In this document: positions 13,980 through 15,589 of the stretch, piece by piece
Layout of the letters: each line of letters starts with the position of its first letter
Position numbering within the stretch: position 1 is the first letter of the stretch
Assembly: GCA_027306785.1 (NCBI GenBank)
Contig: DAHUZB010000015.1
Coordinates: forward strand, 1-36,168
DNA from: Vulcanimicrobiota bacterium
GTDB taxonomy: Bacteria > Vulcanimicrobiota > Vulcanimicrobiia > Vulcanimicrobiales > Vulcanimicrobiaceae
Length of the DNA: 36,168 nt
Direction of reading: 5' to 3'
Made by a program: the position numbers and the translations under genes
Notes under the pieces: generated by a model
Told to the model about the DNA's origin: nothing
Databases searched by the model: none
The model's input: only the letters and a program-made list of their open reading frames with translations

Positions 13980-14521
13980 AGGCCGAACTCGATCCGGCCG
14001 CCGCGGGCGACGCCGAATCGCTCGCGATCACCCGCATGACCTCGGCCGAGATCGCCGACGTGACGCGTATCGAGCGCGCCTCGTTCACCACCACCTGGCC
14101 CGCCGACGCGTTCTACAACGAACTCTCCACCAACAAACTCGCGCATTACTTCGTGGGGCGCGCGGGCGGCGAGATCGTTGCCTACGGCGGCATTTGGGTG
14201 ATCTTCGAGGATTCGCACGTGACGACGATCGCCGTCGATCCCGCGCATCGCGGCAAAAAGTTCGGCGAGATCATGCTGCTGCATCTGCTCGACGAAGCGA
14301 TCGAACGCGGCGCGTCGTGGATGACGCTCGAAGTGCGCGAAAGCAATGTCGCGGCACAGCGCCTCTATCGCAAATACGGCTTCACCACGGTGACGACGCG
14401 CAAAGGCTATTACAGCGACAACAACGAGAACGCGCTCGTGATGTGGGCGGGCAATCTCAAAGGCGATCTCTATCGCGCGCGGCTGAATGCTCTGCGCGCC
14501 GGGCTGCGCGCGCACCGGTGA
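13976..14521 (+). CDS. rimI: RimI-type GNAT N-acetyltransferase
   Basis: 181 residues of GNAT fold. RimI acetylates the N-terminal alanine of ribosomal protein S18 and probably other proteins. The acetyl-CoA pyrophosphate loop is seen as DPAHRGKKFGEIML; the RimI-type end ESNVAAQRLYRKYGF and YYSDNNENALVMW is present. An extra ~20-residue N-terminal extension precedes the MTSAEIADVTRIE start of the core, so the ATG near 14037 is an alternative start, although the ATGA overlap with tsaB argues for 13976. RimI next to TsaB is a common bacterial arrangement. Confidence 0.92.
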   Translation: MKAELDPAAAGDAESLAITRMTSAEIADVTRIERASFTTTWPADAFYNELSTNKLAHYFVGRAGGEIVAYGGIWVIFEDSHVTTIAVDPAHRGKKFGEIMLLHLLDEAIERGASWMTLEVRESNVAAQRLYRKYGFTTVTTRKGYYSDNNENALVMWAGNLKGDLYRARLNALRAGLRAHR

Positions 14522-15117
14522 AGCGCGGCATCGACTACGTCACGCTCGCTCGGCGCGTGCGCGCCCATCTGGGACAGGAACACCGATACGCGCACGTGGT
14601 GCGCACCGCGCGCGCGGCCGACCTGCTCGCCGCGCGTCACGGATTGAACGCGCCCAAGGCGCGTCTCGCGGGCATGCTGCACGATCTCGCGCGCCTCTAC
14701 ACCGGCGCGCGTCTGATCGACGAGTGCGAACTGCGCCGCATTCCGATCGGCGCTTTCGAGCGCGAGCATCCGATCGTGCTGCACGCGCCGCTCGGCGCGG
14801 CGCTCGCGCAGGAGGCCTTCGCGGTGCACGATCCCGAGGTGCTCTCGGCGATCGCCAAGCACACCGTCGCCGACGCCGAGATGTCGCCGCTCGATTGCGT
14901 GCTCTATCTCGCCGACGCACTGGAGCCCGGGCGCGACTACCCCGAGCGGGCCGAGCTGTGGTCGCTTGCCTGCCGCGATCTGCGGGAAGCGATGCGCGCC
15001 GTGCTCGCGAATTCGCTCTCGTACCTGGCTCGCAAGAAGATTCCGGTCGCGCCGCAAACACTCGCGGCGGCCGCAGCGTTCCATGTGGACAGAGGGAGAC
15101 TACCATCGCTGACCTGA
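14518..15117 (+). CDS. yqeK: HD-domain symmetrical Ap4A hydrolase YqeK
   Basis: 199 residues from the GTG that overlaps the rimI stop by 4 bp. YqeK proteins cleave diadenosine tetraphosphate to two ADP with an Fe/metal HD site. Seen: H at the start (EHRYAHVVRTA), the HD pair in LAGMLHDLAR, a His in LHAPLGA, AIAKHTVADAEM and YLADALEPGRDYP, all typical of the family. Its 3' end overlaps the ribosome-silencing-factor frame by 13 bp, and its last codons contain that gene's ribosome binding site. YqeK followed by RsfS is a conserved gene order. Confidence 0.92.
   Translation: MKRGIDYVTLARRVRAHLGQEHRYAHVVRTARAADLLAARHGLNAPKARLAGMLHDLARLYTGARLIDECELRRIPIGAFEREHPIVLHAPLGAALAQEAFAVHDPEVLSAIAKHTVADAEMSPLDCVLYLADALEPGRDYPERAELWSLACRDLREAMRAVLANSLSYLARKKIPVAPQTLAAAAAFHVDRGRLPSLT
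15093..15098 (+). promoter_or_regulatory. Shine-Dalgarno that fixes the rsfS start
   Basis: AGGGAG lies 6 bases before the ATC at 15105, inside the yqeK coding region. It is the only good ribosome binding site in the area and no ATG, GTG or TTG in the rsfS frame lies within 140 bases upstream. Confidence 0.6.
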
Positions 15118-15443
15118 TCGACGTCGTTCGCGACGCCGCGCTCGACAAAAAGGGCGAAGACTTCACCACCATCGAGGTCGGAGGACGCACGATCCTCGCC
15201 GACACCTTCGCGCTCGTGACCGGGCGTTCGAAGATTCAGACGCGCGCCATCGCCGACGAGATCGCCGAGAAGGCACGCGCCGCCGGCTTCGCGGTCGGCA
15301 AGATGGAGGGCTACAACGACGGCACCTGGATCCTGATCGATCTGGGAACCGTGATCGTGCACGTCTTCACGCCCGAGCAGCGCGAATTTTACAATCTCGA
15401 GCGCCTCTGGACCGAAGTCGAGAAACGGCAGGCCCGAGGATGA
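15105..15443 (+). CDS. rsfS: ribosomal silencing factor RsfS, apparent ATC start
   Basis: About 112 residues. RsfS binds ribosomal protein L14 (uL14) and blocks joining of the subunits in starvation. Family features: an N-terminal helix (DLIDVVRDAALDKKGED), VTGRSKIQTRAIADEI, the GYNDGTWILIDLGTVIVHVF core and the EQREFYNLERLW end. The usual start is ATG in front of this helix; here the codon is ATC (ATC GCT GAC CTG), 6 bases after AGGGAG. The nearest in-frame GTG is at 14958 and would add 49 Arg-rich residues foreign to the family; CTG at 15114 is the other option. Product and frame are certain; the start is not. It ends in ATGA with the next gene. Confidence 0.9.
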   Translation: MADLIDVVRDAALDKKGEDFTTIEVGGRTILADTFALVTGRSKIQTRAIADEIAEKARAAGFAVGKMEGYNDGTWILIDLGTVIVHVFTPEQREFYNLERLWTEVEKRQARG

Positions 15444-15589
15444 GCGCCCGCCCCCGCGTCACCCACGAAACCCGAGCCAAGCGCACGCGCCGCGAGATGC
15501 TGATCAAGGCGGGCGTCTGGATCTTCATCCTGCTCTTCACCTTCAGCGTGGCGGGCGGCATCGTCGCGATCAGCCTCGCGAGCCGGTGA
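15440..15589 (+). CDS. 49-residue single-pass membrane protein
   Basis: Starts at the ATG overlapping the rsfS stop by 4 bp. The protein has a basic N-terminal third (MSARPRVTHETRAKRTRREM) and one transmembrane helix of about 24 residues (VWIFILLFTFSVAGGIVAIS), ending LASR. The charge pattern predicts the N-terminus in the cytoplasm. I do not recognise a family. The tight overlap and codon usage argue that it is a real gene at the end of the tsaE-rsfS chain. Confidence 0.7.
   Translation: MSARPRVTHETRAKRTRREMLIKAGVWIFILLFTFSVAGGIVAISLASR

Follow-up and report, generated by a model that had tools for sequence, protein, structure and literature searches.

A recurrent non-AUG start codon on rsfS, alongside similar starts on infC and rpsA, in a bacterial family of the Vulcanimicrobiota

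The codons AUU, AUC and AUA all occur as starts of translation, and AUG, GUG and UUG escape discrimination by IF3 while the others do not, as described in excerpts of PMC4611024. Few bacterial genes are known to have retained a start codon subject to rejection by IF3. According to the excerpted text of PMC13009471, AUU and AUA starts in Staphylococcus aureus yield about a tenth of the expression obtained with AUG in poor medium, infC of that species starts with AUA, and published non-canonical starts include those of infC, pcnB, cvfC1 and ccpN. On the 50S subunit, the ribosome silencing factor RsfS binds uL14, overlaps bridge B8 and blocks subunit joining; the residues of the S. aureus protein that contact uL14 are Glu70, Asp81 and Tyr98 (excerpts of PMC7125091). 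Among open-licence PMC papers, no report of an AUC or CUG start on rsfS, or of an AUC start on rpsA, was found.

The rsfS start in the source window

The window is a stretch of 36,168 nucleotides (contig DAHUZB010000015.1, forward strand) from a draft genome of 3.14 Mb in 35 contigs, the nearest named relatives of which are labelled mostly Candidatus Eremiobacterota. It contains the following features around rsfS:

14518..15117, + strand: yqeK, GTG start, HD domain (PF01966, TIGR00488), its final 13 bases inside rsfS
15093..15098, + strand: Shine-Dalgarno sequence AGGGAG, 6 bases 5' of the start codon; the 87 non-canonical family starts have a block of purines at -12 to -8
15105..15107, + strand: rsfS start codon ATC, aligned with the ATC, CTG or ATT codons that begin rsfS in 87 of the 92 family genomes
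15105..15443, + strand: rsfS, ribosome silencing factor, 112 codons plus stop (PF02410, TIGR00090)
15440..15589, + strand: small downstream gene read from the sequence, 49 amino acids, its ATG overlapping the rsfS stop (ATGA)

The product of rsfS matched PF02410 with 102.2 bits (1.8e-29; cut-off 21.6) and TIGR00090 with 104.7 bits (cut-off 56.9), the latter over positions 3-99 of 99 and thus over the whole domain. By eye only, the segments KMEGY, LIDLG and EFYN of its translation contain plausible counterparts of Glu70, Asp81 and Tyr98 of the S. aureus protein. The 49-amino-acid product of the downstream gene (15440..15589) matched no Pfam family.

A first-pass annotation, made from the sequence of the window alone, had proposed that rsfS starts at ATC. 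Its description of the site, with AGGGAG at 15093-15098 on the forward strand followed by a 6-base gap and by ATC GCT GAC CTG from 15105, is accurate. The further statement that no ATG, GTG or TTG lies between 14958 and the conserved helix is true of the window: the open rsfS reading frame extends back to 14487, the nearest in-frame canonical codon on the 5' side is GTG 14958, 49 codons upstream of the start, none occurs in this frame from there to the first RsfS helix, and the next one 3' of the ATC, located by eye, is GTG 15216, codon 38, within the domain. RNA structure at the start was no more than in shuffled sequence (121-nt fold, z-score 0.12). Taken with the comparison among relatives, placement of the rsfS start at ATC 15105-15107 is well supported.

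rsfS start codons across the family

The rsfS gene was present in 92 of the 99 genomes of the window's family, a group of uncultured bacteria, and all 92 starts were read, being called by alignment and by the position of the Shine-Dalgarno sequence (rsfS of G127, at a contig edge, was left out). The start codon was CTG in 58 genomes, ATC in 28, ATT in one, ATG in two, GTG in two and TTG in one. Hence 87 of 92 genomes have a non-canonical start at the same aligned place and at the same Shine-Dalgarno distance, and five have a canonical one. The five canonical starts (G005, G050, G077, G080 and G084) were assigned by hand; in the remaining 87, whichever non-canonical codon between -4 and +2 codons had the best Shine-Dalgarno match was taken, with two of these genomes (G013 and G028) also having a TTG within this range whose Shine-Dalgarno match is of 3 nt or none. 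A Shine-Dalgarno match of at least 4 nt accompanies 85 of the 87 non-canonical starts, the spacing is 5-8 in 77 of them, and over all 87 this sequence shows up as a block of purines at -12 to -8. In 42 of the 87, the stretch between the preceding in-frame stop and codon +5 contains no ATG, GTG or TTG, and that stop lies within 15 codons of the start in 25; in these genes, therefore, no ordinary start is available there. Judged from the alignment, recurrence of this codon class at one place throughout the family is beyond chance.

These comparisons also bear on other ways of reading the locus. The annotation had considered a G-to-C sequence error at 15107, where a single base would give ATG in an assembly that is a draft of 35 contigs, and had proposed comparing the codon in close relatives. 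In that comparison the two remaining members of the genus had ATC, as did 28 of the 92 genomes of the family as a whole; such separately assembled relatives exclude an error at 15107, which we consider hardly conceivable. A canonical start at GTG 14958, or a start at CTG 15114 (likewise put forward in the annotation) or at a later codon downstream, is very improbable. In the window the open frame does extend upstream of 15105, but in-frame stops occur just upstream in many relatives, besides the 42 of 87 without a canonical codon there. On the downstream side, the codon aligned to 15114 varies among the 29 genomes with ATC or ATT starts, being CTG in only 13, TTG in 10, TTA in three, CTA in two and GTA in one; it is also further from the Shine-Dalgarno sequence, and the next canonical codon, codon 38, is already inside the domain. 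Internal Shine-Dalgarno sequences can stimulate frameshifting, and the yqeK and rsfS frames overlap in the window, so that rsfS could in principle lack a start codon of its own and be expressed as part of a YqeK-RsfS fusion, generated by a programmed frameshift close to the Shine-Dalgarno sequence. Against this, the phase of the yqeK stop relative to the rsfS start was 2 in 46, 1 in 36 and 0 in 4 of the 86 genomes measured (those with a usable position for yqeK), and in 10 of them the yqeK stop precedes the rsfS start. The varying phase therefore excludes a frameshift fusion as a general explanation, and we regard this reading as highly improbable. The coupling to yqeK suggested in the annotation is affected in part: the 13-base overlap fits coupling in the window, but because yqeK ends upstream of the rsfS start in 10 of 86 genomes, such overlap cannot be the family's general means of coupling.

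A phylogeny covering the 92 family genomes, with three from the sister family added, was calculated from YqeK together with RsfS lacking its first three codons. Parsimony gave at fewest eight changes among rsfS codon states and five between canonical and non-canonical starts, counts that are approximate given that support is weak for many inner branches and that the branch to G005 is long. CTG occurs basally in the family and ATC further inside the tree, and one gain followed by four losses of the non-canonical start fits the topology, four losses sufficing for five canonical genomes because G080 and G084 are sisters. ATG is one base away from both ATC and CTG, yet it was found as the rsfS start in only two of the 92 genomes. 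The codon is CUG or AUC and hardly ever AUG, GUG or UUG, which argues that a weak start is retained by selection in the family. Outside the family, rsfS starts with ATG in all three genomes of sister family f2; in family f3 its N-terminus differs, and a start codon was assigned in none. Other members of the phylum mostly have ATG, GTG or TTG near the aligned start. In a genome of another family of the phylum (G113, locus L239), no ATG, GTG or TTG occurs in rsfS from the upstream stop to the aligned start (AAA ATC CTG GAT), which may be a non-canonical case of its own.

The HPF family (Ribosomal_S30AE, PF02482) was matched in eight of 61 family genomes searched, mostly weakly, and in 11 of 14 control genomes. 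The family's chief ribosome-silencing factor may be RsfS.

infC, rpsA and other genes of the same family

Starts of the same kind were found on two further genes. infC starts with ATA in all 35 family loci read, out of 84 family genomes with a match, including the source genome's own copy (L259, G000:C29 near 87450); it starts with ATC in all three genomes of sister family f2 and with ATT in many other members of the phylum. The rpsA gene, encoding S1, came to light when two genomes were compared, and its name comes from NCBIfam S1 models that scored below their cut-offs. Among the best 30 family loci by score, drawn from 97 of 99 genomes with a match and with close relatives over-represented, rpsA starts with ATC in 28 and ATA in two, and 29 of the 30 have no canonical codon from the upstream stop to +4. 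The source genome's own rpsA starts with ATC (L416, G000:C19 near 46650). In family f3 an ATG is present at the expected place of the rpsA start, and in sister family f2 the start is ambiguous between ATC and TTG. The retention of a non-AUG start on rsfS alongside similar ones on infC and rpsA hints at shared control of ribosome use.

Non-canonical starts, as read from these genomes, extend beyond rsfS, infC and rpsA, and this makes a general loosening of start choice, through a variant IF3, initiator tRNA or 16S rRNA and with CUG and AUC as tolerated drift, a live rival, albeit an unlikely one. On its side, yqeK has an apparent CTG start in several family genomes (G059, G030, G014, G056 and G003) and GTG, ATG or TTG in others. 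A putrescine-aminotransferase-like gene without a canonical start has ATC or ATT in G012 (L354:1600-2973) and in its G021 homologue, 3' of a Shine-Dalgarno sequence and three codons past the upstream stop; the gene has GTG in G022. One further gene in G021, which we take to be mnmE-like, starts with CTG. On the other side, frr starts with ATG or GTG in all 30 family loci read. Moreover, drift would pass freely through ATG, whereas rsfS is canonical in only five of 92 genomes and no ATG start was seen among the 35 infC and 30 rpsA family loci. Loosening is also countered by a phase-filtered screen of 283 genes in two genomes, in which nine had no canonical start in both genomes and two of them, rpsA and the aminotransferase gene, look real.

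Two of the other flagged genes have an ATG just outside the range, and another (A159) looks like a formate-dehydrogenase-type gene read through a selenocysteine TGA; four were taken as antisense or wrong-frame noise. Since this screen missed rsfS itself, it undercounts. A wider gene set, with 45 of 327 genes flagged and 10 lacking a canonical start in both genomes, added few gene pairs. Of two other screens, one of N-termini flagged 109 of 321 gene pairs, most of which, on visual inspection, were in the wrong frame, and one combining the Shine-Dalgarno sequence with contrast was noisy.

Proposed control of RsfS and comparison with known systems

We consider it probable that rsfS of the source genome has a genuine AUC start, set by its Shine-Dalgarno sequence and selectively kept weak, that rejection by IF3 would hold RsfS low, and that its level is perhaps set together with those of the infC and rpsA products. 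Most likely, the ordinary initiator tRNA reads AUC despite mispairing at the third position of the codon. IF3 would reject starts of the AUC and CUG class, keeping RsfS output low, and more RsfS would be made when free 30S subunits exceed IF3. From the cited IF3 discrimination, the weakness of AUU and AUA starts and the action of RsfS, we infer that the factor would be scarce and would rise whenever the supply of IF3 falls behind that of 30S subunits. The infC-like control of RsfS level that the annotation had envisaged is plausible, and gains from the ATA starts of infC and the ATC or ATA starts of rpsA in the family.

As the same kind of start is present on infC (AUA) and rpsA (AUC or AUA), IF3, RsfS and S1 may be set together: IF3 keeps 30S subunits apart, RsfS keeps 50S subunits apart, and a single start-codon checkpoint may match these two factors and S1 to ribosome supply. 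More tentatively, and with somewhat less than even confidence, the three genes could belong to a regulon defined by start codon alone, comprising at least infC (AUA), rpsA (AUC or AUA) and rsfS (CUG or AUC), in which the ratio of IF3 to free 30S subunits would read ribosome supply and set, at a single step, the factors for separation of both subunits and for mRNA loading. If RsfS, a second subunit anti-association factor, and S1 do join infC in one lineage, start-codon identity would be a shared control signal and not a peculiarity of infC. In practical terms, gene callers restricted to ATG, GTG and TTG would overlook rsfS and rpsA of this lineage or give them wrong starts.

Within the same protein family, rsfS of E. 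coli likewise does not start with AUG: it has UUG (excerpts of PMC10917681). That codon ends in G and is canonical for IF3, whereas AUC and AUU are not, and CUG is absent from the spared codons named in the excerpted text of PMC4611024. Conserved non-canonical starts that limit expression, as proposed here for rsfS, are described for pcnB of E. coli (AUU) and for cvfC1 (AUU) and ccpN (AUA) of S. aureus (excerpts of PMC13009471); these are other genes with other functions, and theirs were demonstrated experimentally, while the case for rsfS is built by comparison only. The closest parallel is infC, which starts with AUU or AUA and is subject to IF3 autoregulation in E. coli and S. aureus (excerpts of PMC13009471). 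rsfS differs from it in acting on the 50S subunit, in starting with CUG or AUC and in a dependence on IF3 that we infer; like infC, it encodes a factor that separates the subunits and carries a conserved start of the IF3-rejected class behind a Shine-Dalgarno sequence.
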